IMG/VR virus record: IMGVR_UViG_3300025132_000239
Span: 1 to 26,566 of that record
DNA from: a virus
Reading direction: 5' to 3' (one strand)
DNA length: 26,566 bases
In this document: positions 2,248 through 24,354 of the stretch, one piece after another
How positions within the stretch are numbered: the stretch's first letter is position 1
How the letters are laid out: each line of letters begins with the position of its first letter
The notes under the pieces: model-generated
Told to the model about the DNA's origin: nothing
Database searches by the model: none
The model's input: the letters and a program-made list of their open reading frames with translations, nothing else
Program-made: the position numbers and the translations under genes

Positions 2248-2274
2248 CGACTTTTTCATACGGCATGTATTATT

Positions 2275-2390
2275 AAAAAAATGCATTGCCGCTTATCAAT
2301 AATCTCAAATACTAATTCCGAAAATATAGAGACTAACCTATATCTTGTTTTAGTAGCCAACCAATAGTATTTGCTTTGATAAGCGACAAT
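2275..2390 (-). terminator. Large branched intrinsic terminator of the leftward operon
   Basis: In the leftward RNA, 2390-2376 pairs with 2299-2285 over 15 bp, with one G-U pair (2386/2289). Inside it, 2366-2373 pairs with 2306-2313 over 8 perfect bp (agtatttg/caaatact), and a 6-bp hairpin (atatag/ctatat, 2324-2329 with 2338-2343) sits in the apical region. Three bases after the outer stem the leftward strand has seven Ts (2281-2275). Stem plus U-run 3' of the last leftward gene fits an intrinsic terminator. The long branched shape is more elaborate than termination needs. The rightward strand has no comparable T-run after the stem. Confidence 0.7.
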
Positions 2391-2403
2391 TTCTTAATCG
2401 TTG

Positions 2404-2541
2404 TTAATTCAAATTAACATCATCATTATCTAAATTATCCTCAGTATTTCTTATAATCAAGTTATCATTTTTTTCTATTGCAATGATAAGTTTCTGAGCT
2501 AATTTAATAATAGTTTCTGCTTCTTCTCTAGTTATTTGCAT
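2404..2541 (-). CDS. Small acidic hypothetical protein, 45 aa
   Basis: A 45-residue frame starts MQITREEAETIIKLAQ and ends in an Asp/Asn-rich acidic tail (NLDNDDVNLN). Its ATG lies inside the last codons of the resolvase gene (10-bp overlap), and an AAGGAAG ribosome site lies about 6-8 bases upstream, so translation is probably coupled. The N-terminal half looks like one amphipathic helix. It is the last gene before the operon terminator. No family was recognised. The overlap and the ribosome site support a real gene; function is unknown, perhaps an accessory to the resolvase. Confidence 0.55.
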   Translation of the reverse strand: MQITREEAETIIKLAQKLIIAIEKNDNLIIRNTEDNLDNDDVNLN

Positions 2542-2861
2542 TCTTTTGCTTCCTTTTCTATTTTTAACAAATGTAGAAACCTTTTCAATGGTATTATAGC
2601 TAAGGCTTCTTTTCTATCCATACGTGTAACAACAACGTCTACATCGTCTCCGTGATAGTCTGGATACAACCATTGTGCAACTTTCTTTCTTCGCTTTGCT
2701 TGTATGCATGTATCTTCAACTATTACATCAACAACTTCTGATTTACCTAGTGATCTACCGTCTGAAGCATAGGCCCTCTTTGCAGATAGGCCCATGTCTT
2801 TAGATGTATTTACAATCTCACGTTCGAGATTGTTACCACGTATTTTATTAGGATGCGTCAT
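2532..2861 (-). CDS. Hjc-like Holliday junction resolvase, PD-(D/E)XK nuclease fold
   Basis: This 109-aa protein has the order of motifs expected of Hjc-type and phage junction resolvases. RGNNLEREIV near the N-terminus carries the first acidic residue (Glu13), followed by a Ser/Gly-rich turn (ASDGRSLG, 32-39), an Asp in a beta strand (VVDVIV, Asp45), and QAKRR at 54-58, where Gln-x-Lys stands in the usual Glu-x-Lys position; Gln there is also seen in other phage members. Such enzymes cut four-way DNA junctions during recombination-dependent replication or before packaging. It overlaps the preceding gene by 14 bp and sits downstream of the primase-helicase, SSB and ERF genes, consistent with a recombination role. 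A more general VRR-like nuclease is the main alternative. Confidence 0.75.
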   Translation of the reverse strand: MTHPNKIRGNNLEREIVNTSKDMGLSAKRAYASDGRSLGKSEVVDVIVEDTCIQAKRRKKVAQWLYPDYHGDDVDVVVTRMDRKEALAIIPLKRFLHLLKIEKEAKECK

Positions 2862-3108
2862 TCGGGGAAAGATTCATACTAACTATGTTAAAATCTTCCT
2901 CGTATTTCTTAATTGCATCTGGTGATTCGTCCCAGTATCTGATACCAAAAGAAAATTCTAGTGGACCAAATCTGGTGTCAAACCATAGATGATTACCGAA
3001 GTTATTATCCATTCTTGTGGATAAAGCAATAAACTTCAGTAGTTTAATTTCTGCTTTCTGTATATTGCTTTTTTCTTCGTACGTAGCTTTAAATAAGTTT
3101 TTCAACAT
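2848..3108 (-). CDS. Hypothetical protein, 86 aa, between primase-helicase and resolvase
   Basis: The start is placed at ATG 3108 (MLKNLFKATYEE) because GGAGG lies five bases upstream (3118-3114); the longer form begins with TTG and consumes that ribosome site as codons. It overlaps the 3' end of the primase-helicase gene by 20 bp and the resolvase start by 14 bp, so it is embedded in a coupled run of replication genes. The protein has a Lys-rich helical N-terminus and an aromatic middle (LWFDTRFGPLEFSFGIRYWD). No motif was recognised. Its conserved-looking position suggests a replication accessory role, which is inference only. Confidence 0.7.
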   Translation of the reverse strand: MLKNLFKATYEEKSNIQKAEIKLLKFIALSTRMDNNFGNHLWFDTRFGPLEFSFGIRYWDESPDAIKKYEEDFNIVSMNLSPNDAS

Positions 3109-4918
3109 TATTTCCTCCAATTTCGTTAAATGTCATATTATTTGCATTGAATGCAGCTAACATCTTGAATTGACCTTCGTCACGTGATTTTACTGATATT
3201 ATCTCACGTGCTGCATCATTTCTGTTACCTTTAATCAATACAACTTTGTCTGCTTTCTGAACAACATTACTACTACCTTTTAAAGAATGTAAGGTAATAA
3301 CATTGTTAGCAGCAGATGTTTTGTTAAGGTGATGAATAGCAATGATAATAATATTGGTTTTCTGAGCTATTTGCTTTAAAGCACCAATAACACTATTTTG
3401 CTTTTCTATCTCACCTTTAACAAAGTCTACCTCAACTTCGTCAGTAGTATCAACAACTAGAACTTTAGGTTCATATTCTGCTACTACTTTCTTAATAGAC
3501 TCTATTCGTGGTGCTATTGTCATTACTTGTATATGTTGCAACAATTCTTTTGCGTTAAATTCTGGATTATTTTGATATTGATCAATAACCCATTCTTTAT
3601 CTTTGTTTGTTGCAATTTGTACAAAACGTCTGAATATCAACTGTTCGTTCATTTCTAGTGATAAAAACAAAGTTTGTTGTTTTGCTTTTACTATTAGATC
3701 TTGTATAAACGCAGTCTTACCTAGACCAGTATCACCAGAGAATATTACTAACTCACCAGGACTAAATGTATACGGATTACATCCATATATTTCGTCTAGC
3801 TTGATAGAGTTCTCTGTTAACTTTGTTGTTACGTAGCTCCTAAAAGCGTCTTCTAACGCATCAACGCCTTTGATATCTAATGTATAATCTTTACGTTTGT
3901 AATGAATACATTTAGAATCACAATATTCAGCCATGATATGATCATCGCATCCATATTGATAGGAGCCTTCGTAAACGTTTGTAACTGTTCTAGTTATTTC
4001 TTCTTCAGACATTGTATCGTTTGCCCAAGTAAACATACCATTTAATGTAACAAGCATAGGTATACCCGCTCTTTTGTAAGAGCTTACCATACGCATCAAC
4101 TTCATATTACGTGAACCCTTTAATGGTCCTTCGTTAAATATGTGCTGCATACAAGACACTACTGATGTTACGTCCGAGCTATTTCTATTGTTCTTGGTAT
4201 CGTATTGTATTGTAGGTGATGCAACTATCATTGATTGCAAATATGGTTCTACTGTTCTTGTTTTAAATAGTGTTGCGAAGAAACTAGTATTCATAGCTGC
4301 TTGAGTTTTATTTACATAACTCATGTAGCTTGATTGACAAGATGCTATTTCTTGAATAGTATCCATATCTAACTCTGATAATAGTTGTAATGGAATCCAT
4401 ATTTTATGGAGGTTAGTTTTCTTGTTTAATGACCATTTACATCTTATGATCCTTGTCTTATCATAGATGCTATCAGCAAAGTCAAAATGCTTATTCATTG
4501 TAAGTTTAAGCTTTTCGTGTATATCTCTGCTTGGTTGTAAACCGAATACATTCTTCATTTCAATATGGAAACCACTACCACTAAACCACAAGTTAATGTC
4601 TTCTTCCATAACACCTTTGTCAAACATCTCAGATATACATTGCTGCAAATAACCAATAAAATGATCATCTGGTATTTCTCCTTTGTCTATATCTAATATG
4701 ATAAAGTCAATGTAAGCAATACCGTTAAATCCTTTAACTGATTTATTTGTAGCAACATATTCTTTGAAGTCGTCACTAAAAGTAAAATAGGATCTGTACA
4801 TTTCATCTTTCCATGCATTTCCTATTACTTCCTTAGAGTAGGTCTTAATATCCGTAATGTGATTACGTTGAGATAGATTTCCTTTTACTAATTCGCAATA
4901 AAATCTACTTTCTTCCAT
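3089..4918 (-). CDS. Bifunctional AEP-type primase fused to a RecA-fold (DnaB/gp4-like) replicative helicase
   Basis: This 609-aa protein combines two activities. The N-terminal part has archaeo-eukaryotic primase (AEP) motifs: FIILDIDKG with Asp76/Asp78 as metal ligands, SGSGFHI (113-119) as the S-x-H motif, and FADSIYDKTRIIR (about 147-159) as the third motif. A cysteine cluster at 324-337 (C-x8-C-x3-C with nearby His) looks zinc-binding. The C-terminal part is a RecA-fold ATPase: Walker A GDTGLGKT (395-402), FLSLEM (418-423) with a catalytic-type Glu422, Walker B KVLVVD (485-490), IAIHHLNK (527-533), and SLKGSSNVVQKAD (545-557). It should unwind the fork and lay primers. Unlike T7 gp4, the primase half is AEP rather than TOPRIM. 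It overlaps the preceding small gene by 31 bp. No polymerase gene lies in this cluster. Confidence 0.88.
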   Translation of the reverse strand: MEESRFYCELVKGNLSQRNHITDIKTYSKEVIGNAWKDEMYRSYFTFSDDFKEYVATNKSVKGFNGIAYIDFIILDIDKGEIPDDHFIGYLQQCISEMFDKGVMEEDINLWFSGSGFHIEMKNVFGLQPSRDIHEKLKLTMNKHFDFADSIYDKTRIIRCKWSLNKKTNLHKIWIPLQLLSELDMDTIQEIASCQSSYMSYVNKTQAAMNTSFFATLFKTRTVEPYLQSMIVASPTIQYDTKNNRNSSDVTSVVSCMQHIFNEGPLKGSRNMKLMRMVSSYKRAGIPMLVTLNGMFTWANDTMSEEEITRTVTNVYEGSYQYGCDDHIMAEYCDSKCIHYKRKDYTLDIKGVDALEDAFRSYVTTKLTENSIKLDEIYGCNPYTFSPGELVIFSGDTGLGKTAFIQDLIVKAKQQTLFLSLEMNEQLIFRRFVQIATNKDKEWVIDQYQNNPEFNAKELLQHIQVMTIAPRIESIKKVVAEYEPKVLVVDTTDEVEVDFVKGEIEKQNSVIGALKQIAQKTNIIIIAIHHLNKTSAANNVITLHSLKGSSNVVQKADKVVLIKGNRNDAAREIISVKSRDEGQFKMLAAFNANNMTFNEIGGNNVEKLI

Positions 4919-5154
4919 CCTTTAACTCTCTCGTTGTTATGTTTAACTTCTTGTAATCTTATGCCACAAGCTTCTAATAGAGCATCGTCTGAACGGATTG
5001 TTCTAAATGCTCTTGAATAAGTACTTGCCGTATGTATCTTATTGTATTTTACTTTGCCATAATATGGTACTTGACTCTCAAAGTTGTGAGAAAAGAATAC
5101 TTCTCCCATATCTAAAGAGTCAAGCCAATTGATTACTATTGTTTTTGCAGTCAT
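4888..5154 (-). CDS. Small hypothetical protein, 88 aa, possible winged-helix protein
   Basis: The gene shares its start with the end of the ssb gene and runs 31 bp into the primase-helicase gene, so all three are translationally linked. The sequence starts MTAKTIVINWLDSLDMGEVFF and has STYSRAFRTIRSDDALLEACG in the second half, which reads like a helix-turn-helix followed by a wing (QEVKHNNERVKGWKKV). Small proteins of this look occur beside replication genes in other marine phages. A DNA-binding replication accessory, for example a helicase loader or fork protein, is possible but not shown. Confidence 0.65.
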   Translation of the reverse strand: MTAKTIVINWLDSLDMGEVFFSHNFESQVPYYGKVKYNKIHTASTYSRAFRTIRSDDALLEACGIRLQEVKHNNERVKGWKKVDFIAN

Positions 5155-5678
5155 TAAAACGGTAAATCGTCTAAATCTACTTTAGTTTCTTCAGCTTGAA
5201 CGGCTTGCTGAGGAACCTCTTTTTTGTAGTTTTTAGGATAACCTTGTTTTAATGATTTTTCAAATTGTGCACCTAGGTCATCTGTATCATCCCAAGATGA
5301 AACTCTGTTCCATAATGCTCTTTTGTATTTACCACTACACGGATAACTTAGTACTGCTATTTGCGTATCTAGCAATTCATCTAAGTTTATATCACCAGTA
5401 TCAGACACTTCTAAGTCTTTACCTGCTGCAAGATACAAAGTGTTAACTAAATCTGGATATTTAAGATCTGTTACAACACCGTTAGTATCTTTTTCGTAGT
5501 TTTGATTTAAGAACAAATTAGATTTGTATGCATTTTCTGAATCTTCTAATTCCAGTTTTACTGTTGTATCTGTGTATTGAGATTCTATTTGTTCTACTGC
5601 TTTGATAAAGCATTTATTGATGAAATAAGGTTGATTACCGCCTTTAGACGTCTTAACCTTAGTACCCGTTATTGCCAT
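5154..5678 (-). CDS. ssb: Single-stranded DNA-binding protein
   Basis: The 174-aa protein ends in EETKVDLDDLPF, the acidic-hydrophobic C-terminal tip through which bacterial and phage SSBs recruit partners (E. coli SSB ends DFDDDIPF). It is preceded by a flexible Gln/Ala-rich linker (PQQAVQAEE). The N-terminal 120 residues are beta-rich with aromatic residues, compatible with an OB fold, though the core is divergent from E. coli SSB. It would coat single-stranded DNA at the fork and hand it to the ERF annealing protein and the helicase. A clear AAGGAGG site precedes the ATG at 5678. The stop overlaps the next gene's start. Confidence 0.8.
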   Translation of the reverse strand: MAITGTKVKTSKGGNQPYFINKCFIKAVEQIESQYTDTTVKLELEDSENAYKSNLFLNQNYEKDTNGVVTDLKYPDLVNTLYLAAGKDLEVSDTGDINLDELLDTQIAVLSYPCSGKYKRALWNRVSSWDDTDDLGAQFEKSLKQGYPKNYKKEVPQQAVQAEETKVDLDDLPF

Positions 5679-5689
5679 ATGATTCCTCC

Positions 5690-5941
5690 TTATCTTTGGT
5701 CATTAGCATGATCTTGATTACGTTCGTGTGCACCGTCAATTAACCCTTGATTTATACTTTCAATGTAATTGCTTAATGCGTCTATAGATTTAGCATAGTC
5801 TGCTAATTCTACATCTAGTGATTCGTCTTGTACAAATGGTACTTTAATTAATACAAAAGTACCAAAGTCGTTCACTATATGTTTTGTTTCTCCAGGTTCC
5901 ATAGAACCTATTCTATGCTCACTAGGCATCTTTTTTGACAT
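5690..5941 (-). CDS. Hypothetical acidic protein, 83 aa, between erf and ssb
   Basis: The ATG at 5941 is preceded by AGAGGAGG and lies 20 bp inside the end of the erf gene. The protein (MSKKMPSEHRIGSMEPGETK at the start) has an early beta-type segment, FGTFVLIKVPF, then a helical acidic half and a polar tail. No motif was recognised. Its place between the annealing protein and SSB suggests a recombination or replication helper, by context only. Confidence 0.65.
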   Translation of the reverse strand: MSKKMPSEHRIGSMEPGETKHIVNDFGTFVLIKVPFVQDESLDVELADYAKSIDALSNYIESINQGLIDGAHERNQDHANDQR

Positions 5942-6500
5942 TTGATGCCTCCTCTAGTTTTGATTCAAACCCTCGTTTAGCTGTTTGAACCCTAGCTACG
6001 GTATCATAGAATCCAGCTTCACGTTTCTTCATAAAAGCTAGATATTGAGCTTCATTAATTAACGAAGCTTTTTTACACTCTCTTGCAAGCTTGTCAATTT
6101 CCGAAAGTTCTTTAACTTTAGGTTTGAATACTGCTTGTTTTGTCTTAGCATTCTCAACTTCTTCTTTGCTAGCAATGGCAAAATCTGCACCAATACCCAT
6201 GTTGGCAAGGGCCCTACCGACGGCACTCGTCTCGCAATTTTCCAAAGCACTCGTCTTATTAACAAAGCCAGTATTGTCTCGCTCAGCTGCTGTTCCAGTG
6301 AATTGTTTCTCTGGTATTTCGAGTACGTTTGGCGTGATCGTTGCTTGGACTCTGTATTCATTGCATTGCTCTCCAGTTGGTGTATCTATTATTTGCTCTA
6401 CTGTAAGTAGCTTAGTATTAATCATGCCGTTTGGATACGTATTGTGAAACTCTTTTATACGGTCGTTAACTGTTGCATAATCTTTAAGATTAAATCCCAT
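5922..6500 (-). CDS. erf: ERF-family single-strand annealing recombinase
   Basis: The 192-aa protein carries the signature of ERF/Rad52-like phage annealing proteins: VNKTSALENCETSAVGRALA (about 79-98) followed by MGIGADFAIASKEEVENA. The N-terminal half is beta-rich and ends in the region around FTGTAAERDNTGF. These proteins anneal complementary single strands, circularising or recombining phage DNA. The C-terminal third is Lys-rich and helical (EIDKLARECKKASL), as in the tail of P22 Erf. The start at 6500 has TAAGGAGG. Its leader contains a 14-bp RNA stem (6523-6565). Long frames on the opposite strand here (6091-6447) are shadows of the same codons. Confidence 0.88.
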   Translation of the reverse strand: MGFNLKDYATVNDRIKEFHNTYPNGMINTKLLTVEQIIDTPTGEQCNEYRVQATITPNVLEIPEKQFTGTAAERDNTGFVNKTSALENCETSAVGRALANMGIGADFAIASKEEVENAKTKQAVFKPKVKELSEIDKLARECKKASLINEAQYLAFMKKREAGFYDTVARVQTAKRGFESKLEEASNVKKDA

Positions 6501-6522
6501 AATTCCTCCTTATTTATGGTTA

Positions 6523-6565
6523 GCTTGGACAACCAAATTAATATTTCTAAGTTGATTATCCAAGC
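6523..6565 (-). promoter_or_regulatory. 14-bp stem-loop in the erf leader RNA
   Basis: On the leftward RNA 6565-6552 (GCUUGGAUAAUCAA) pairs with 6536-6523 (UUGGUUGUCCAAGC) over 14 uninterrupted base pairs, two of them G-U, with a 15-nt loop. On a rightward RNA the same two positions would be A-C mismatches. The stem ends about 10 bases before the erf ribosome site and has no U-run after it, so it is not a terminator. It could control translation or stabilise a processed end. Confidence 0.6.
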
Positions 6566-6574
6566 GTTTTATTG

Positions 6575-6652
6575 TTATTTCGTCTTGTAATATTCGCCAC
6601 ATATACGTAATAATACGTAACACATAGCAAATGTAATTAGTAGTTTTATCAT
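6575..6652 (-). CDS. 25-aa hydrophobic micropeptide
   Basis: The frame starts MIKLLITFAMCYVLLRICG and ends with a polar GEYYKTK tail, giving a single predicted membrane segment. An AGGAGG site lies a few bases before the ATG at 6652 and overlaps the stop codon (TAG) of the preceding gene, the same arrangement as the other genes of this operon. This strong, correctly spaced ribosome site is the main support. A membrane micropeptide of unknown role is likely; chance is the alternative because the frame is so short. Confidence 0.5.
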   Translation of the reverse strand: MIKLLITFAMCYVLLRICGEYYKTK

Positions 6653-6660
6653 TACTCCTC

Positions 6661-6993
6661 CTAGTCTAATAGTACCATATAGGCCTTAGCGTTATTCCAT
6701 CTAAACCAATCTAGCCCTTTGCGTACTATTTTTTGTGCATCGTGATCCATAAAATAATCAGGTGAATCTAGTTGAGCATCGATTATCCTTTTGTATACTG
6801 ATTGTTCTACTGGTGTTAATTTGTATTTTTCACCACTAAAAGGATTTTGCGCAACTAATTCTGCGTCTTCATTATCACGAAACTTACATTCAGACATATC
6901 GTATGGAAATTTAGTATACTTTTCTGTTGTAGTATGTTCATAACCATGTACGTCTGTGTAAGTTATATTGGTTTTACTCGGTTCACTTCCCAT
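6661..6993 (-). CDS. Hypothetical protein, 110 aa
   Basis: AAAGGAGG precedes the ATG at 6993, which lies 31 bp inside the end of the preceding gene. The protein is polar and beta-rich at the start (TNITYTDVHGYEHTTTEKYT) and helical later (LTPVEQSVYKRIIDAQL, then FRWNNAKAYMVLLD). No family was recognised. It belongs to the run of small overlapping accessory genes. Confidence 0.7.
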   Translation of the reverse strand: MGSEPSKTNITYTDVHGYEHTTTEKYTKFPYDMSECKFRDNEDAELVAQNPFSGEKYKLTPVEQSVYKRIIDAQLDSPDYFMDHDAQKIVRKGLDWFRWNNAKAYMVLLD

Positions 6994-7187
6994 GTGAATC
7001 CCTCCTTTGATAGTTTATCAAGCATTTTTTGATGCCATATTTTAGCTTCTTCCTCTGTAGCATAATTAGGATGAAACTCAGCATTTCTAGCTGCTTGATA
7101 GTGTTTAACTGATAGTATTTTAAGCAATACTATGTAATTTGGATCGTCGTAATTTTCTGCTACTGAAACCACATAATGTTTATTCAT
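6963..7187 (-). CDS. Small hypothetical protein, 74 aa
   Basis: The start is placed at ATG 7187 (MNKHYVVSVAENYDDPNYIV), which overlaps the stop of the preceding gene by 8 bp and has GGAAG about 12 bases upstream. Longer options begin at ATG 7214 or TTG 7217 without a ribosome site. The sequence has a beta-type N-terminus, then HYQAARNAEFHPNYATEEEAKIWHQKML, which resembles small phage proteins that align as alternating strand and helix. Function is unknown. Confidence 0.6.
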   Translation of the reverse strand: MNKHYVVSVAENYDDPNYIVLLKILSVKHYQAARNAEFHPNYATEEEAKIWHQKMLDKLSKEGFTWEVNRVKPI

Positions 7188-7647
7188 TAGGTGAAATGCT
7201 TCCAGCAATTTCATCAATTACTATACTTAATGGTCTGAATTTAGTTCGTACTGATACCGATTTATCTTCATATTTATTTTTATCTAGTTTCAAAGATTCT
7301 AATTCAGAAATCATCCATTGAACTCCGTCCCAATAGTAGATATATTCAATAAATATATCTCCTTGTGTCATGCGAAAATATTGTGATATATCTTCGTATG
7401 AATCGTACTCTTCTTTATCACCCATATATTCAATAGTAGAATCTACAGAACGCATTGATTTAAGTTCTATTTCATCTACTTTTGATTGAGTATTAAAGTG
7501 ATTAAGTAACTCGTATCCAACTCCAGGTACAAAATCACCTTTACTTCTAAAACCAGGATAACCATCATAGTGACAATAGACTGATTTAATTGACTTGTAA
7601 CCATCTTTTGATGTTCTTTTAAATACAATATTAGATCTAGTTGACAT
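7180..7647 (-). CDS. Conserved phage protein of the MSTR...YCHYDGYP type, 155 aa
   Basis: The start MSTRSNIVFKR and the early IKSVYCHYDGYPG match a recurrent phage and plasmid protein type that opens MSTRS and has YCHWDGYP within the first 40 residues. The remainder, including DIFIEYIYYWDGVQWMISE, fits the usual length. The biochemical role of the family is not known to me. The gene starts with a TAATG overlap with the preceding gene and a GAGAGG site upstream. Confidence 0.75.
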   Translation of the reverse strand: MSTRSNIVFKRTSKDGYKSIKSVYCHYDGYPGFRSKGDFVPGVGYELLNHFNTQSKVDEIELKSMRSVDSTIEYMGDKEEYDSYEDISQYFRMTQGDIFIEYIYYWDGVQWMISELESLKLDKNKYEDKSVSVRTKFRPLSIVIDEIAGSISPNE

Positions 7648-7850
7648 TACACGCCTCTCTTTCTACGTATTGATGTTATCATATTTCCTTTACCGTCTTG
7701 GACATACATAAATTCATATCCTAAATCTTCAAGTAAAGATATTCTATGCTTGATTTCTCCATGTGTTTCTAATGCAAGCTCAGATACGCTAGTATCTTCT
7801 ATTTCATTCAACTCTTGTCTTACTATATCCATTTCAGACAATTTACCCAT
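7647..7850 (-). CDS. Small hypothetical protein, 67 aa
   Basis: GGAAGGAG precedes the ATG at 7850, which overlaps the end of the preceding gene by 8 bp; its stop overlaps the next start (TAATG). The protein is mostly an acidic helix (MGKLSEMDIVRQELNEIEDT) ending in a small beta hairpin (YEFMYVQDGKGNMITSIRRK). No family was recognised. Confidence 0.7.
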   Translation of the reverse strand: MGKLSEMDIVRQELNEIEDTSVSELALETHGEIKHRISLLEDLGYEFMYVQDGKGNMITSIRRKRGV

Positions 7851-8271
7851 TTGTATCTCCTTCCACTTTATTTGCTAAATCATTAATTTCATTAACTTTA
7901 TCAGCAATCATTTTTTTGTTAGCTTCAACTTCTTGGTTAATCTCTTCTTCTCTCCATCGTGCTGTTTCCATTACACCTACTGGTAGTACTCCGTGAGGTT
8001 CTACCATAACGGTTTCATTTCCACCTATTTCTACATCCATGCTTTTAGCTCTTCCAGTAGACCAGTGAATAGCACCAGGGCCATTACCTTCGTCATCCAT
8101 AGCTATAAACAATGCAGTACCACTATCTAACACTAATACTAAACCAGTAGTATTATCTTCATCCCACTGCTTCCATAAGATTGTTTCTATCTTTTGCCCT
8201 TGTAGTAAAGCAAAAGCTTTCTTGTGCCAACCTTCTGTTCTTTGCATTTTTTCTTTACTTATTTTACTCAT
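7843..8271 (-). CDS. Conserved small phage protein with an EGNGPGA motif, 142 aa
   Basis: The central part reads TGLVLVLDSGTALFIAMDDEGNGPGAIHW. The pattern of a beta hairpin then (D/S)DDEGNGPGA is familiar from small uncharacterised phage and mobile-element proteins that bind no known cofactor. The C-terminal third is a charged helix (EEEINQEVEANKKMIADK), probably coiled-coil. GGAGGAAG precedes the ATG. The gene overlaps both neighbours by a few bases. Confidence 0.7.
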   Translation of the reverse strand: MSKISKEKMQRTEGWHKKAFALLQGQKIETILWKQWDEDNTTGLVLVLDSGTALFIAMDDEGNGPGAIHWSTGRAKSMDVEIGGNETVMVEPHGVLPVGVMETARWREEEINQEVEANKKMIADKVNEINDLANKVEGDTNG

Positions 8272-8624
8272 GCTCTTCCTCCGTCAAGTATTTTCATATA
8301 TTTATCTTTATTGCCATTGCAATCTTCAATTACTTTTTCTTCCCATTCTTGTTGATGCATAGGATATTCAAACTCACCACAACAATCACCAGCATATTCT
8401 GGTTCTACTGTTTCTTTGCTGTAATCGTTTTTTAGTGTATTCATATTAATAAATACTTTTTCATACACTTGATCACTACCGCACCAATTACATACCCAAT
8501 CACCTAAATACTCTTCATCAATTGCTTTTACCATGCAATCTTTTTCTGTATTTAAATTTGTTATTTGCCTTGGATACAACTTTTTAGTTACAGGTCGAAA
8601 TATTTCTGCTACTTCATTACTCAT
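8268..8624 (-). CDS. Cys-rich zinc-ribbon-like protein, 118 aa
   Basis: The start is ATG 8624 (MSNEVAEIF), which has GAGGAGG upstream; the longer reading begins at TTG and would translate the ribosome site. The protein has WVCNWCGSDQVYEK (C-x2-C) in the first half and AGDCCGEFEYP in the second, a probable zinc-binding arrangement. Such small ribbons often act in protein or nucleic-acid contact. It overlaps the preceding gene by 8 bp. Confidence 0.7.
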   Translation of the reverse strand: MSNEVAEIFRPVTKKLYPRQITNLNTEKDCMVKAIDEEYLGDWVCNWCGSDQVYEKVFINMNTLKNDYSKETVEPEYAGDCCGEFEYPMHQQEWEEKVIEDCNGNKDKYMKILDGGRA

Positions 8625-8862
8625 TTGACTCCTCCTCAATTTTTAGATATTGAAATATCCATTGATTTTTATACTTATTCGTTTTTGCATTATCGGTAAA
8701 CAACCACCAAGCTCTACCGTGCTTTTCAGCAAAGTCTTCTCTTTCTTGTATACCTTCTAATGACCAAGGATCAAAGAATTTCATCTTCTTCATCCTATCT
8801 TGTATCGTTTCAGCTGGAACTATGTTTTTACGTAGTAACCAAGCTTTTTCTCTTTTATTCAT
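8617..8862 (-). CDS. Hypothetical protein, 81 aa, first gene after the structured RNA region
   Basis: AGGAG precedes the ATG at 8862. The protein is Lys/Trp-rich (MNKREKAWLLRKNIVPAET, then FDPWSLEGIQEREDFAEKHG and AWWLFTD), basic at the start and acidic at the end. No family was recognised. It is the first gene downstream of the 8882-9069 structured region, so that RNA would be its leader if no separate promoter exists. Confidence 0.7.
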   Translation of the reverse strand: MNKREKAWLLRKNIVPAETIQDRMKKMKFFDPWSLEGIQEREDFAEKHGRAWWLFTDNAKTNKYKNQWIFQYLKIEEESNE

Positions 8863-8881
8863 ATTTTTCTCCTATTTATTC

Positions 8882-9069
8882 ATAAATTTTTTGAGGCTTT
8901 GTTTATAATCTCGTTTGTTACTTAGATATCTAAGTAGAGCACAGGTATCGATTTAATAGCTTACCTCTTTTATGTGCTAACCTCAAAAATTTATTCAGAA
9001 CTGAGGTAGCTTTAGCAAAACTAGTATCTCTAACCTACTACCTCTATTCTGATTCAAGTCACTCAGAAT
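8882..9069 (-). ncRNA. Candidate structured non-coding RNA or complex leader, about 190 nt
   Basis: The 236-base gap between two leftward genes holds no convincing gene but dense inverted repeats. An outer stem joins 8882-8896 with 8981-8994 (14 bp, one bulge). Inside it are a perfect 18-bp palindrome TACTTAGATATCTAAGTA (8919-8936) and a two-part stem, 8938-8943 with 8973-8978 (agcaca/tgtgct) plus 8944-8947 with 8962-8965 (ggta/tacc). Beside it, 8995-9000 pairs with 9047-9052 and 9003-9009 with 9038-9044 (gaggtag/ctacctc). A further hairpin, 9046-9052 with 9063-9069 (attctga/tcagaat), competes for the same segment. The strand is assigned from the flanking genes and one G-U pair (9001/9046). 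I do not recognise a known RNA family. Confidence 0.6.
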
Positions 9070-9098
9070 ATTCCATTGCTGGACCATCTGTAATGTGA

Positions 9099-9437
9099 CT
9101 ATAGTTGATTTGGTCTTTTACCGACCTTCATCATCCAAGGTTCTAACGACATATGTAATAACCAGTCCGACATTGAAATAAGTTTACCTATGTCTTCTAC
9201 GACATGTTGTTCGCCTATTTGTCTTACTGGTACTTGTCTACCATCAGAATTAGTGATGTATTTACCAAATACGTCAATACACCAACCAATACCTTCTGTA
9301 TGATGTCTCATTGATCTGTGAGTTGGTAATGAACAACCACGTTTAGAATCATCAAACCAATGATGAATCTTAATGTAGTCATCTACATTACCTCCCCATT
9401 TTTTAACACTACTTTTACTGTGATAAAGCGGGTCCAT
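9099..9437 (-). CDS. DUF6915-like conserved phage protein, 112 aa
   Basis: The protein starts MDPLYHSKSSVKKWGGNVDD and continues with HHWFDDSKRG, MRHHTEGIGWC, VFGKYITNSDGRQVPVR, IGEQHVVEDIG and EPWMMKVG. This order matches from memory the DUF6915 type found in phages and bacteria (His-rich, with NSDG...PVR.IGEQHV.ED). Several conserved His and Asp residues suggest a metal-binding enzyme, but no activity is known to me. GAGGAGG precedes the start, which overlaps the preceding gene's stop (TAATG). Confidence 0.75.
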   Translation of the reverse strand: MDPLYHSKSSVKKWGGNVDDYIKIHHWFDDSKRGCSLPTHRSMRHHTEGIGWCIDVFGKYITNSDGRQVPVRQIGEQHVVEDIGKLISMSDWLLHMSLEPWMMKVGKRPNQL

Positions 9438-10471
9438 TACTCCTCCTCTCTAGTAACAGTCACGTTTTCTTTAATCATACTTTTTGTGAAATCGTGTAGT
9501 TCTTTTAGTTTAGACTGATCTTTCTTCAAACTAAAATCCAACGAATTATTTTCGTACATTTTATTTTTAGGAAATATATCTTTAATAAATCCTTTTAATC
9601 TTGTAGATAATGTATCGTCTAGTGTTACTTTGGTATTTTCAGTTTCTTGTACCATAACGTTAGTTTCTTGATTTACTGTAAGATGAACTTTGTTATCTTT
9701 TAATTCAACAAGAAATGAATTTTGACTCCCGTGGTTATTTTGCCAACCAGGCTGCAACATTCCGTAGAAAGCTTCATCAATGGTATCCCATGTATCTTTA
9801 AATACACGTGGATACATTAATTTTAAAACTCTTGTATCAAAGTATGTAAAGTCTGCATCAATGATATCTTCGTTTTGCTGTTTTCTGAGTGTTATACCAC
9901 GTTCATCGCCATTATTGCTAACGCTATGTAAAGACCAACCCATATTCAAAATACTTTGAACAATTCCATTGGAAAAATCTTCAAGATCTAAAGTTTCAAA
10001 CTCTTCTGAGTCCATTTCTATTAGAAATTTTTCACGATCTTCTATGTATTTTCTGAGTTGTCTTGTATATGTATCTGATTCCCACAAATGGTAATTAAAT
10101 ACATTGTTTTGTTTTACATTTTCTCCGTGATATATTTTCATATAAAAATGTCTTAACATATGCGATGGATGTATTTGTATACCATCAGTATCACGAAGTT
10201 CTAAGGATTCTAAACAACCGTCGTCTCCATAGCCATTGTATTCAAGTTTCATACTACCTATGTTAGTATGTTCAAAGATTGGTTTAAAATGATCATGTAA
10301 ATCAATTTTAGTTTTAATACCTCTGAAATAATTTTGAATATAATACAATTGAGACCAGGTGTATCCTTGTATTGTTTTTTGTCTACCAGACTTATCTTCA
10401 CCTAATGTTTTTTTCATAGCTTTTGTGAATTTAATATCAAGTCCATTAAACCTTACATCATTATAGTCCAT
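9437..10471 (-). CDS. Large accessory protein, 344 aa, with DUF6878-like elements
   Basis: GAAGAGGAG precedes the ATG at 10471. Two stretches, LEYNGYGDDGCLESLELRD in the first third and FYGMLQPGWQNNHGSQNSF followed by NKVHLTVNQE in the second half, resemble DUF6878-type phage and plasmid proteins, which have YxGxGDSGQI and GWEINxGS(x)GxF patterns. Here the two halves are separated by a long helical insertion (TRQLRKYIEDREKFLIEMD). The C-terminus is Lys-rich. Function is unknown. It is the largest gene of the accessory block. Confidence 0.7.
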   Translation of the reverse strand: MDYNDVRFNGLDIKFTKAMKKTLGEDKSGRQKTIQGYTWSQLYYIQNYFRGIKTKIDLHDHFKPIFEHTNIGSMKLEYNGYGDDGCLESLELRDTDGIQIHPSHMLRHFYMKIYHGENVKQNNVFNYHLWESDTYTRQLRKYIEDREKFLIEMDSEEFETLDLEDFSNGIVQSILNMGWSLHSVSNNGDERGITLRKQQNEDIIDADFTYFDTRVLKLMYPRVFKDTWDTIDEAFYGMLQPGWQNNHGSQNSFLVELKDNKVHLTVNQETNVMVQETENTKVTLDDTLSTRLKGFIKDIFPKNKMYENNSLDFSLKKDQSKLKELHDFTKSMIKENVTVTREEE

Positions 10472-10473
10472 TA

Positions 10474-10701
10474 CTATCTCCTCTTCGTTTTGTTTTGTAA
10501 TTCAATTAACATTGCTGCAAGATATACTATCATATCTAATGCTTCTTCTATAGCATCTTGCAAATGATCTCTTGTACCGTCTAATGGTACTTCTTCACCG
10601 TGCTCTATCGCACCATAATGAAGTCTTTCTTCTATTAGTTCAAGTATAGATTCGTTATTACTTTTTCTAATACCTAACCAATGTAATAGTTTTTTAAACA
10701 T
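10474..10701 (-). CDS. MazG-like / all-alpha nucleotide pyrophosphohydrolase-like small protein, 75 aa
   Basis: The protein is all-helical, with IEERLHYGAIEHGEEVPLDG and DAIEEALDMIVYLAAMLIEL. The EE..D motif on the second long helix and the YG...HG segment resemble small phage MazG-like proteins, which in active forms hydrolyse nucleoside triphosphates with EExxE and ExxD metal ligands. Only part of the motif set is present, so catalysis is doubtful. AAAGAGGA precedes the ATG at 10701. Confidence 0.6.
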   Translation of the reverse strand: MFKKLLHWLGIRKSNNESILELIEERLHYGAIEHGEEVPLDGTRDHLQDAIEEALDMIVYLAAMLIELQNKTKRR

Positions 10702-10718
10702 TGTTATCCTCTTTTTTT

Positions 10719-10752
10719 AGTATGTAGAGGAAAAGAGAAACCCCTACATACT
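10719..10752 (-). promoter_or_regulatory. Intercistronic 12-bp RNA hairpin
   Basis: The leftward RNA 10752-10741 (AGUAUGUAGGGG) pairs with 10730-10719 (CCUCUACAUACU) over 12 bp with one G-U pair and a 10-nt pyrimidine loop. It fills the gap between the zinc-ribbon gene and the next ribosome site. The following run is A-rich, not U-rich, so termination is unlikely; mRNA processing or a stability role is more likely. Confidence 0.55.
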
Positions 10753-10759
10753 TTCTTGT

Positions 10760-11005
10760 TCATCTATTGACTTCCCAAGAGTAAAAAGAAGGCTCTATAT
10801 CGCCTTTGTCGCCTCTCTTTACCTCTTTGGTATCATCGCTCTCTTTTAGATCGTTCATTACTGATTGTGATAACAGATACATACTATCGTCACAACATTG
10901 TTCTTTTGTTTCAAAGTTCCATTGTTGTTTATCATAGTTGTACTTGCTTTCTGCTATCGTTGTTCTGCAAGTAGGACATACTACTCTTATAGGTTGTCTA
11001 TTCAT
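10760..11005 (-). CDS. Zinc-ribbon protein, 81 aa
   Basis: The start is placed at ATG 11005 (MNRQPIRVV), which makes an exact ATGA overlap with the preceding gene's stop; the longer form begins at GTG 11035 with no advantage. The sequence has VVCPTCRTTIAES (C-x2-C) and EQCCDDSMYLL, a probable zinc ribbon, then a polar tail ending SFYSWEVNR. It could contact nucleic acid or protein; no family was recognised. Confidence 0.65.
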   Translation of the reverse strand: MNRQPIRVVCPTCRTTIAESKYNYDKQQWNFETKEQCCDDSMYLLSQSVMNDLKESDDTKEVKRGDKGDIEPSFYSWEVNR

Positions 11006-11202
11006 TTCAAGACCACATTGTAGTATATTGCCCACATTAAAGGTTTTGACATTTTACTGCAAACCTTATTGCATGCTGGATCGTACGAATTAGTTGCAAC
11101 ATCTTGCAATGTTCGCAAGTTCACCTTGTATGTTTTTGTAAACCACTCAGTGAATACTGTTGAATGCTGCAACTTTGTATGATACATTTCTTTTTTAGTC
11201 AT
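11002..11202 (-). CDS. Small basic hypothetical protein, 66 aa
   Basis: The ATG at 11202 overlaps the previous stop by 8 bp, with an AAGAG site nearby. The protein begins MTKKEMYHTKLQHSTVFTEW and ends LMWAIYYNVVLK, with two Cys in YDPACNKVCSKM. No motif was recognised. The overlaps on both sides support it. Confidence 0.6.
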   Translation of the reverse strand: MTKKEMYHTKLQHSTVFTEWFTKTYKVNLRTLQDVATNSYDPACNKVCSKMSKPLMWAIYYNVVLK

Positions 11203-11377
11203 CTCTTAAAACCTTTATACTTACGGTTTTAGCTCTAACATTTACCAGCGTTTCTATTACTTCGTCTGTGTATGATTCGTATGGTATTTCCGTATCATCA
11301 TTAAACGAAATGTTAATATCTACGCCTTTTGGTTTTGGAACGTGTTTCTTTCTGATAGTCTTTTGTTTATCTTTCAT
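11195..11377 (-). CDS. Small basic hypothetical protein, 60 aa
   Basis: The N-terminus is very basic (KDKQKTIRKKHVPKPKG) and is followed by a beta-type acidic segment (VDINISFNDDTEIPYESY) and a C-terminal strand VRAKTVSIKVLRDD. It starts 11 bp inside the end of the membrane-protein gene and has AAAAGGGA about 9 bases upstream. No family was recognised. Confidence 0.6.
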   Translation of the reverse strand: MKDKQKTIRKKHVPKPKGVDINISFNDDTEIPYESYTDEVIETLVNVRAKTVSIKVLRDD

Positions 11378-11708
11378 AAAACAAATCCCTTTTCATTTGT
11401 GTATACTCGTCGTATAACCATTCTACTACACGTGCTAACACATAAAATGTTATTAGCCATAAAAAGACTAACGATAGATCTAGTGCTGTTGTAGATAGCA
11501 AATTGTTATATGTTCCAGTATACATATTGTACTTTGTATCAAACTTTAAAAACATCACGATAGACGTTGTTATTGTTGATACTAACAAGATGCTGTTAAA
11601 TAAACATCTTCTTGTGAATTGAATTACACTTGTTACTGCGAGATATGGTCCTTTACCAATGTATCTTGCTTTAACACGTGTAATCTTATCTTTTATATAA
11701 TTACGCAT
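11367..11708 (-). CDS. Two-span membrane protein, 113 aa
   Basis: After a basic N-terminus (MRNYIKDKITRVKARYIGKG) there is a hydrophobic segment FNSILLVSTITTSIVMFLKF, a 20-residue polar loop, and a second segment LDLSLVFLWLITFYVLARVV, followed by a charged tail. This predicts two membrane helices. It is the first gene after a promoter and a 5' hairpin (11740-11850). AGAGGAAA precedes the ATG. A holin is conceivable but the place in an early-type operon argues for another envelope role. Confidence 0.7.
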   Translation of the reverse strand: MRNYIKDKITRVKARYIGKGPYLAVTSVIQFTRRCLFNSILLVSTITTSIVMFLKFDTKYNMYTGTYNNLLSTTALDLSLVFLWLITFYVLARVVEWLYDEYTQMKRDLFYER

Positions 11709-11739
11709 TGTATTTCCTCTTTTTTGTTAATGAAAGCTT

Positions 11740-11815
11740 TGCCGACCAATATTGCGGACTAACTGAACTAAGGTATATTGATATGATATGTGAGTTGTGT
11801 GGATATCAGTCGGCA
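11740..11815 (-). promoter_or_regulatory. Stem-loop at the 5' end of the 11708 mRNA
   Basis: The leftward RNA 11815-11803 (UGCCGACUGAUAU) pairs with 11752-11740 (AUAUUGGUCGGCA) over 13 uninterrupted bp, two of them G-U, around a 50-nt loop. The 5' arm begins at the +1 predicted from the upstream promoter, so the mRNA end would be inside the helix. The 3' arm ends about 20 bases before the ribosome site. Confidence 0.6.
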
Positions 11816-11821
11816 TAAGTT

Positions 11822-11850
11822 ATAATAGTAATATCACTTACCAATGGCAA
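11822..11850 (-). promoter_or_regulatory. Sigma70-type promoter for the leftward accessory operon
   Basis: Reading leftward, TTGCCA (11850-11845) is followed after 17 bases by TATTAT (11827-11822), five of six bases in the -10 consensus and four or more in the -35. Predicted +1 is near 11815-11816. It lies between the terminator of the 11969-12424 gene and the 11708 gene, where a new promoter is needed. Confidence 0.6.
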
Positions 11851-11876
11851 GTTTTTTAGCATGGCATTATGCATCT

Positions 11877-11907
11877 AAAAAAAATCTTTACTGTGCAAAG
11901 CACAATA
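11877..11907 (-). terminator. Intrinsic terminator after the 11969-12424 gene
   Basis: The leftward RNA has an 8-bp stem UAUUGUGC/GCACAGUA (11907-11900 with 11896-11889, one G-U) with a UUU loop, then four bases (AAGA) and eight Us (11884-11877). The gap before the U-run is longer than ideal. It follows the 15-bp hairpin at 11911-11952 directly. Confidence 0.6.
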
Positions 11908-11910
11908 GCT

Positions 11911-11952
11911 ATCCTTATGATGTCAACAAATGAATGCTGACACCATAAAGAT
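11911..11952 (-). promoter_or_regulatory. 15-bp RNA hairpin 3' of the 151-aa gene
   Basis: The leftward RNA 11952-11938 (AUCUUUAUGGUGUCA) pairs with 11925-11911 (UGACAUCAUAAGGAU) over 15 bp without a break, two pairs being G-U, with a 12-nt loop. It begins 16 bases after the stop codon and precedes the terminator hairpin. It may protect the mRNA 3' end. Confidence 0.6.
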
Positions 11953-11968
11953 TATGATACTTTGATAG

Positions 11969-12424
11969 TTATGATGTAACTATTGTATCTCCGCCAATAA
12001 CATCTGCTTTATTAGTAACGTAGAATGTTACCAATGTTTCAGACTTATTGTTCTGATTAACATAGGGCTTGTTAATCACATCAACTAATTCACCGTTGCT
12101 ATTCTTAGCTTTGGCAATAAGTTGCAAGTCCCTAAGTGCAAGGTATTTATTAAATGAAGATGCTAGTTTCCATTTAGATAAATCCTTAGAGCGGATAGTT
12201 ATCATATAGATATAACGATATCCCTCAGAAGACTCTTGGTTTAACTGAGACAATTGCTCGCCCCTGATCGCATTGAGTGCAACATTCTGCGTGTGTTTTT
12301 GCCTATCGGCTAACTCAGGCATAGTTGATTTAGTAGGACGTACTTTAATTGATACAAGTGAACTGCCAATGTTTTTCTTATTAAGCTCGTTAAATGCATC
12401 TTGGATTTTATACATATTAGACAT
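11969..12424 (-). CDS. Hypothetical protein, 151 aa, single leftward gene next to the divergent promoter
   Basis: The protein (MSNMYKIQDAFNELNKKNIG) is mixed alpha/beta, with SSLVSIKVRP, YRYIYMITIRSKDLSKWKL and a beta-rich C-terminus (ETLVTFYVTNKADVIGGD). It has no motif I recognise. It is the first leftward gene and is bounded downstream by a hairpin and terminator, so it is probably an abundant separate transcript, as expected of an early product. A weak AGAGAG lies upstream of the start, with a small hairpin (12462-12476) in the leader. Confidence 0.75.
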   Translation of the reverse strand: MSNMYKIQDAFNELNKKNIGSSLVSIKVRPTKSTMPELADRQKHTQNVALNAIRGEQLSQLNQESSEGYRYIYMITIRSKDLSKWKLASSFNKYLALRDLQLIAKAKNSNGELVDVINKPYVNQNNKSETLVTFYVTNKADVIGGDTIVTS

Positions 12425-12500
12425 TGTATACTCTCTTTCTTTTTTGTTTTAATATTAATTAGTGGACAAAGTCCACGAGGGTGCAGCTACGCCCGTAAAG

Positions 12501-12568
12501 CAAATATTGACTTAGAAATATTCAAACGAATAATTTCAACGATATTGAATATGAAAAGTCAATATTTG
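12501..12568. repeat. Large nested inverted repeat at the transcription divide
   Basis: Arms CAAATATTGACTT (12501-12513) and AAGTCAATATTTG (12556-12568) are perfect 13-bp complements. Inside, atattcaa (12518-12525) and ttgaatat (12545-12552) pair, followed by CG/CG at 12527-12528 and 12540-12541. Each outer arm contains TTGACT reading into the repeat, so both directions have a -35-like hexamer. Confidence 0.8.
12507..12534 (+). promoter_or_regulatory. Putative rightward sigma70-type promoter inside the inverted repeat
   Basis: TTGACT (12507-12512) is followed after 16 bases by AATAAT (12529-12534), five of six bases of each consensus. A mirror TTGACT reads leftward from 12562, with a weaker TGAAAT 18 bases on. 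The two would overlap face to face, so only one polymerase could bind at a time. Confidence 0.45.
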
Positions 12569-12625
12569 TAGGGGGTAGGTGTGATATATACCACGTACAC
12601 ACAATCTAGGGCTATTTTTTAAAAC

Positions 12626-12870: not shown

Positions 12871-12983
12871 GTATTGCAAGGTATAAACGTATATATATAA
12901 ACATATGAATAAACGTTTATAAAAGTACATTTATACATACATTGGTATGTATTGCTATATACATAAACGTTTATGGAGGAAAA
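12871..12983 (+). promoter_or_regulatory. Operator cluster with ATAAACGTTTAT palindromes upstream of the 117-aa gene
   Basis: Two identical 12-bp perfect palindromes ATAAACGTTTAT lie at 12909-12920 and 12963-12974, and a degenerate copy ataaacgtatat at 12883-12894. Between the two perfect copies is a hairpin, atacatac/gtatgtat (12933-12940 with 12945-12952). A promoter-like TTGCAA-16-TATAAA runs from 12874 to 12901, so the first two sites flank or overlap it. The last palindrome touches the GGAGG of the next gene (12975-12979). Binding by a dimeric repressor is the simplest reading; origin iterons are the alternative. Confidence 0.6.
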
Positions 12984-23568: not shown

Positions 23569-24354
23569 ATGGCTAATATTTTACAAATAAAAAAGAATGC
23601 ATGGAATACAGTTTCAGCTGGAGCTCCAAATGCTGATACATTGGCTTTTGGTGAATTAGCTTGGGATACAGCTGGAAAAACACTTTACATTGGAAGACAA
23701 ACAGATAGTAGTGGTACTACAGAAACAGTTAGAGTCATGCCTAATGCTTCAAGTAGTGCGGTTGGTGTAGCTAGTTTTAGTACTAACAACTTTGTTGTAA
23801 GTGCTGGAGGTGCTGTACAAATTAAGGACCTTGGAGTAGCAACAGAGGAATTAGCTGCTGATGCAGTAACTTCAGCAAAGATAGCAGATGATGCAGTAGA
23901 CAGTGAGCACATAGCTAATGACGCAGTAGCTCTAGGAACGCAAACTACTGGTAACTATGCAGGAACAATAACAGGTACAACAAATGAAATTGAAGTAACT
24001 GGTTCTGCTGGAGAAGGTACTGCTTATACTATTGGATTACCGAACGATGTAACTATTACTGGTAACTTAACTGTTCAAGGTGATACGGTTACATTAAATA
24101 CTGGAACATTAACAGTTGAAGATAAAAATATAGTTGTTGCTAAAAACATAACAGCAGACCCAGCGTCAGACGCAGGTGTAAACGGAGCAGGAATAACTAT
24201 TGGTGCTAATGCATCTGCTCCAAGTTTAACTTGGATAAATAATACATCTGGTGTAGCAGATAGATTTGAATTTAACAAACCTGTTAAGCTTACTATCGAC
24301 CCTACTGCAGATTGTGGTTCTAATTTAGATTTTGGAACATACGTTAATCCGTAA
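23569..24354 (+). CDS. Tail fibre-like protein, 261 aa
   Basis: The start MANILQIKKNAWNTVSAGAP, then LAFGELAWDTAGKTLYIGRQ, is the virion-anchoring N-terminal domain seen in many tail fibres. It is followed by ELAADAVTSAKIADDAVDSE, a repeating helix-like TSAKIADDAV unit common in fibre shafts, then beta-rich VTITGNLTVQGDTVTLNTGT and a repeat-like GITIGANASAPSLTW. AGAGGATAAG precedes the ATG. It is shorter than a typical receptor-binding fibre, so it may be a trimeric sheath or anchor. Confidence 0.75.
   Translation: MANILQIKKNAWNTVSAGAPNADTLAFGELAWDTAGKTLYIGRQTDSSGTTETVRVMPNASSSAVGVASFSTNNFVVSAGGAVQIKDLGVATEELAADAVTSAKIADDAVDSEHIANDAVALGTQTTGNYAGTITGTTNEIEVTGSAGEGTAYTIGLPNDVTITGNLTVQGDTVTLNTGTLTVEDKNIVVAKNITADPASDAGVNGAGITIGANASAPSLTWINNTSGVADRFEFNKPVKLTIDPTADCGSNLDFGTYVNP

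Follow-up and report, generated by a model that had tools for sequence, protein, structure and literature searches.

Introduction

The early mRNA of phage T7 is processed at five sites (PMC4858673), and in the cip-cel operon of Clostridium cellulolyticum the ratios between transcripts are set by stem-loops in the intergenic regions (PMC4423207). In T4-like phages, the PeSL cassettes place a stem-loop and an early promoter in gene gaps and are proposed to serve gene shuffling (cited in PMC4503421). The ESAS of Cluster K mycobacteriophages are inverted repeats of ~17 bp in the gaps before the starts of non-structural genes (PMC3203893, PMC11373665). Here we describe hairpins and larger structured RNAs in the gaps of the leftward operons of the virus record IMGVR_UViG_3300025132_000239, the whole of which (26,566 nt, 26.6 kb; 33.6% G+C) is referred to as the window. 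It is close to certain that these gaps are under selection at the RNA level, acting in the leftward transcript.

Like the RNase III sites and the terminator Tphi of T7, the hairpins sit between the genes of a polycistronic phage transcript and have one-sided G-U wobbles, but the phage is unrelated to T7 and other gaps of it hold larger structured RNAs. As in cip-cel, intergenic stem-loops occur at gene 3′ ends within one operon and are conserved in relatives; cip-cel, however, is bacterial, and its transcript ends and effects were measured, whereas the present case, set against either system, is known from sequence. The gap 11709-11968 resembles PeSL in having a terminator-like hairpin, a promoter-like site, and a leader; different from PeSL, RNA modules within a scaffold appear to be exchanged here rather than genes. 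With ESAS the stems have in common that they are inverted repeats in gaps upstream of gene starts. They share structure but not sequence, whereas ESAS have a consensus and SigA-like promoter motifs, which suggests that ESAS are DNA sites. A shared inverted-repeat consensus of the ESAS type was absent among the 97 stems reported below.

Results

An earlier note on the window had picked six hairpins by eye and argued from their wobbles that they are selected as RNA. Because the choice was made by hand, we repeated the search choice-free, covering all gaps in a dereplicated set of 70 loci. As a G-U pair on one strand is an A-C mismatch on the other, G-C, A-U, G-U, and A-C were all permitted, which renders the search strand-neutral. 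At a score of at least 10, the leftward gaps yielded 97 stems as compared with 5.0 in dinucleotide shuffles, and their G-U pairs numbered 197 in the leftward sense and 8 in the rightward sense (1.5 and 2.5 in the shuffles). Hence, the shuffled gaps gave neither as many stems nor the wobble bias, the two of which together had been named as grounds for abandoning the idea. At a score of at least 8, there were 231 stems versus 60.5 in shuffles, with 291 versus 56 wobbles. The bias persists when each of the 47 sequence clusters is represented by one stem (93 leftward versus 6 rightward), and base composition is rejected as its source, the predicted ratio being 1.02. Convergent gaps have 20 versus 0 wobbles. 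Rightward gaps have 10 versus 8 and thus no bias, and the stems listed for them are mainly AT-rich palindromes. The 97 leftward-gap stems have no common sequence. Four-base loops, 39 in number, include 9 GNRA and 10 UNCG tetraloops, as compared with 2 and 0 of 32 in shuffles. Stems were also found inside called genes, namely 101 in leftward genes (wobbles 132:54) and 23 in rightward genes (17:17); the former may be due to errors in gene calling or to structured RNA within coding sequence.

The same search was applied to T7 as a positive control. It returned 8 stems versus 2.2, with wobbles of 14:2, and the stems include the annotated terminator Tphi (stem at 24170-24205, annotated at 24210). 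The T7 stems also include RNase III sites, reportedly described by Dunn and Studier in 1983, although the record carries no such annotation. The Pelagibacter phage HTVC106P showed no excess in this search.

The six hairpins of the window are all present at the coordinates given for them. The hairpins, structured RNAs, and associated sites of the leftward gaps described from here on all lie on the minus strand. As leftward RNA, the stems have 15 pairs (2285-2390), 14 pairs plus 4 inner ones (6523-6565), 12 pairs with a loop of 10 (10719-10752), 13 pairs (11740-11815), 8 pairs (11889-11907), and 18 pairs with a loop of 6 (11911-11952). In the same order, their leftward/rightward wobbles are 1/0, 2-3/0, 1/0, 2/0, 1/0, and 3/0. 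The claimed one-sidedness is therefore complete, while the total is 10-11 rather than the nine counted before. The leftward fold is the more stable one at 2285-2390 (-33.1 vs. -24.1 kcal/mol), 6523-6565 (-18.4 vs. -9.8 kcal/mol), 10719-10752 (-15.9 vs. -11.6 kcal/mol), 11889-11907 (-7.2 vs. -4.9 kcal/mol), and 11911-11952 (-23.8 vs. -10.6 kcal/mol). Only 11740-11815 departs from this, as its rightward fold makes use of other pairs and is more stable (-16.0 leftward vs. -21.2 kcal/mol). Strand-specific folding of a sample of gaps in the window, scored against shuffles, gave leftward/rightward z-scores of -5.5/-1.3 for gap 11709-11968, -3.0/-1.8 for 10702-10759, -4.6/-3.7 for 8863-9098, and -5.3/-1.7 for 6501-6660. 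In the convergent gap 2248-2403, the two strands score alike (-3.7/-4.0).

Compensatory changes in homologues support the stems, as the earlier note had expected of RNA-level selection. The hairpin before gene 5922-6500 is retained in two clades by differing sequences. In the first set (14 sequences), 96.8% of the cells are paired and 30 cells have double changes, as against at most 6 when the partners are slid; in the second set, 97.4% of the cells are paired. In gap 11709-11968, pairing reaches 100% in all three stems, each with double changes, of which 11889-11907 has two pairs and 11911-11952 has four. For 10719-10752, 6 sequences gave 3 double-change pairs. To control for relatedness, the inferred substitutions were re-placed 300 times along a FastTree tree, a simplified stand-in for R-scape. 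All five alignments, small as they are (6 to 14 distinct sequences), exceeded every one of the 300 replicates in compensatory changes. One of the five was made for the interior of 2285-2390, the closing stem of which was judged by listing the arm pairs of relatives.

The plain junction hairpins occupy similar positions. The one at 6523..6565 precedes the start of gene 5922-6500 by 22 nt and leaves its ribosome-binding site free. The one at 10719..10752 precedes the start of gene 10474-10701 by 17 nt, and the one at 11911..11952 is 16 nt past the stop of gene 11969-12424. In the window, structure is present at all four leftward-leftward junctions of more than 11 nt. Across the loci, stems are 10-25 bp long, with peaks at 13 and 17, and start at a median of 12 nt past the upstream stop codon. 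Among the 67 stems with room to move, 41 begin no more than 20 nt past the stop, where 15.6 are expected, and the 15 nt before the next start contain no stem end, where 11.9 are expected. As the ribosome-binding site stays free, a mere block of initiation is disfavoured. Beside the homologue of 10719-10752, the loci L004 (4953-5113) and L005 (4937-5097) have an insert of ~95 nt with a structure closed by 16 bp, which is missing from the otherwise similar L006 (3819-3883).

Two further stems share gap 11709-11968 with the hairpin 11911-11952. The 8-bp hairpin at 11889..11907 is followed by T8 (11877-11884) and is terminator-like. Downstream of it, the promoter-like TTGCCA-17-TATTAT (11822..11850) is retained in relatives save single changes, although promoter-like sites as a class are no more frequent in the window than chance predicts. 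The stem at 11740..11815, with its conserved loop of ~50 nt, lies just past this site and probably forms the 5′ leader with which a second leftward transcript begins.

The element at 2285..2390 is not the simple hairpin that it had been taken for. Its stem P1 (2376-2390 with 2285-2299) closes a 76-nt structured interior, giving a domain of ~106 nt. The interior is three-way and comprises hairpin A (TTGGT[TGGCT]ACTAA, 2350-2364) and hairpin B (2323-2344), the latter with covariation at six of seven pairs; distant clades have a differently built interior. The loops GGCT and AGTC are both invariant and possibly form a loop-loop pairing. P1 is closed in relatives by 32 differing arm pairs, not all individually checked. 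A less selective search for P1 gave 33 leftward to 20 rightward wobbles, a much weaker bias. In leftward RNA, P1 is followed by the U-run GCATTTTTTT (2272..2284), predicted to make a terminator-like operon end. In L211 and L212, a ribosome-binding site and the start of an open reading frame come after the RNA. Matches to TTGGTTGGCTACTAAAA in the contigs L210, L214, L215, L218, L225, and L227 were taken as chance, as their surroundings fold unlike the RNA.

A modular structured RNA occupies 8994..9100 in gap 8863-9098. It consists of stem P1 (AGTCAC/GTGACT) with module M1, a linker, and stem P2 (TCAGAATAGAGG/CCTCAGTTCTGA) with module M2. Besides the window, 35 instances were found in related loci, in which the two-stem scaffold is conserved and the distal modules appear swapped. 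The basal pairs covary (AGTCAC/GTGACT, AGTTAC/GTAACT, and ACTCAC/GTGAGT), and P2 has G-C to A-U changes. By a simple similarity threshold, which renders the type numbers approximate, there are ~6 types of M1 and ~17 types of M2, combined in many ways. Different modules are present in the window and in L075, a close relative, and a nearly identical module occurs in phages whose anchor proteins (from gene 5922-6500 and its homologues) are only about half identical. Tandem copies are present in L030, L110, and L097. These patterns hint at a mobile combinatorial RNA, in which the base stems are kept and the modules are swapped largely independently of relatedness, some into other scaffolds; we put this forward tentatively. 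Pieces of the cassettes may resemble 23S rRNA. The same gap has a further inverted repeat, AATTTTTGAGG...CCTCAAAAAATTTAT (8882..8992), read from the sequence alone. Rfam searches of the window and eight related loci gave no match at the gathering threshold, and relaxed searches gave implausible weak matches only.

The leftward operon of the window runs from 12424 down to 2404. It includes genes for a DnaB-like helicase (3089-4918) and a RusA-like resolvase (2532-2861), and otherwise consists of many small genes without assigned function, while terminase and other genes make up the rightward block. The anchor gene 5922-6500 matches solely PHROG families of unknown function, and the label ERF gained no support from searches. 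The related loci were drawn from viral-contig scans, and their genes were called with our own script, which reproduced the window gene map well. Nearest to the window are L075/L095 and L001-L008. No isolate phage is close, protein identity being just 23-45%, and a host search for terminase relatives in genome contigs found none. The family, made up of uncultured viruses of bacteria, is probably marine, judged by the nearest isolates. L005 and L066 belong to one 89.8-kb contig, IMGVR_UViG_3300030116_001948, in which the anchor gene region occurs twice, ~44 kb apart, possibly because two phages were joined in assembly. An inverted repeat, AAATATTGACTT...AAGTCAATATTT, lies at 12500-12570 in the gap that separates the divergent operons.

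Discussion

Strand bias, covariation, tetraloops, and the same bias in T7, whose intergenic hairpins are established RNA signals, bear out the proposal that the leftward stems are selected as RNA and not as DNA palindromes. What the plain hairpins 6523-6565, 10719-10752, and 11911-11952 do is less settled. Their position and the analogy with known systems give about an even chance that they act as mRNA segment boundaries. A hairpin that follows a stop codon without touching the next ribosome-binding site would block 3′-to-5′ exonucleases or, alternatively, would be cut to leave a hairpin-capped transcript end. A long polycistronic transcript would thereby split into segments differing in stability and translation. 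The remaining elements would be special cases, with 11889-11907 as a terminator, 11740-11815 as a 5′ leader just past a promoter, and 2285-2390 as a structured RNA in its own right that bears a U-run where the operon ends. Several points weigh against such boundaries. The stem position equally fits a role of the 3′ untranslated region on the upstream gene alone, or a control of coupling. At 12-15 bp, a stem would be a short substrate for RNase III. Those within called leftward genes are unexplained by a pure boundary role unless the genes are miscalled. Moreover, the related loci share ancestry, so counts across them are not independent events.

The junction hairpins might instead be RNase III processing sites as in T7, cut by the host enzyme to free shorter mRNAs, which we regard as rather unlikely although it is not far-fetched. 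The precedent of T7 mRNA processing speaks for it, as do the intergenic placement and the wobble bias, both found in T7 as well, including at the stems assumed to be RNase III sites. The length peaks of 13 and 17 bp, however, appear to fall below the typical substrate of about two turns. A phage-encoded RNase III had no match in 15 relatives, some being fragments, so the enzyme would have to come from the host. A search for a single-subunit RNA polymerase gene likewise had no match, but neither did its control, and no conclusion is drawn from it.

Transcription terminators or attenuators are an improbable explanation of the stems as a group. They would account for 11889-11907 with its T8, for 2285-2390 with its run of seven T, and for several convergent-gap stems that finish in T-runs, and T-runs follow 20 of the 97 stems versus 11.9% of random gap positions. 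Yet about four fifths of the stems have none, and for four of the six hairpins (6523-6565, 10719-10752, 11740-11815, and 11911-11952) termination was rejected for lack of a U-run. Equally improbable is a role of the stems in translational control or as targets of an RNA-binding protein, be it of the phage or the host. They do sit upstream of start codons, and the conserved loop of 11740-11815 and the structured RNAs could bind something, but the start region is avoided and the plain stems share no sequence. As the stems also fall into at least four kinds, a single sequence-specific protein is unlikely, and one shared reader of that type was rejected; a structure-reading nuclease or the blocking of exonucleases is possible as a common reader. 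That the leftward-gap stems are DNA-level palindromes (operators or protein-binding sites) or chance products of picking six by eye is almost certainly wrong, being excluded by the shuffles, strand bias, tetraloops, and covariation, even if AT-rich palindromes near the divergent region (e.g., 12890-12941) lack a consistent bias and may be DNA sites. The repeated AT-rich palindromes ATAAACGTTTAT at 12890-12965, before the rightward genes, and others in such gaps look like DNA-level sites.

Intergenic mRNA hairpins are a known kind of element, and their signature here is unusually clear and family-wide. The more novel part is the two conserved RNA elements, 2285-2390 and 8994-9100, without Rfam counterpart. 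If the exchange of cassettes is true, it raises the question of what the virus gains from reshuffling non-coding RNA parts. Counting one-sided wobbles without strand preference is a cheap test of RNA versus DNA function, and it gave the expected answer in T7. Applied here, it reveals that RNA structure extends across a whole operon in phages without a cultured host.

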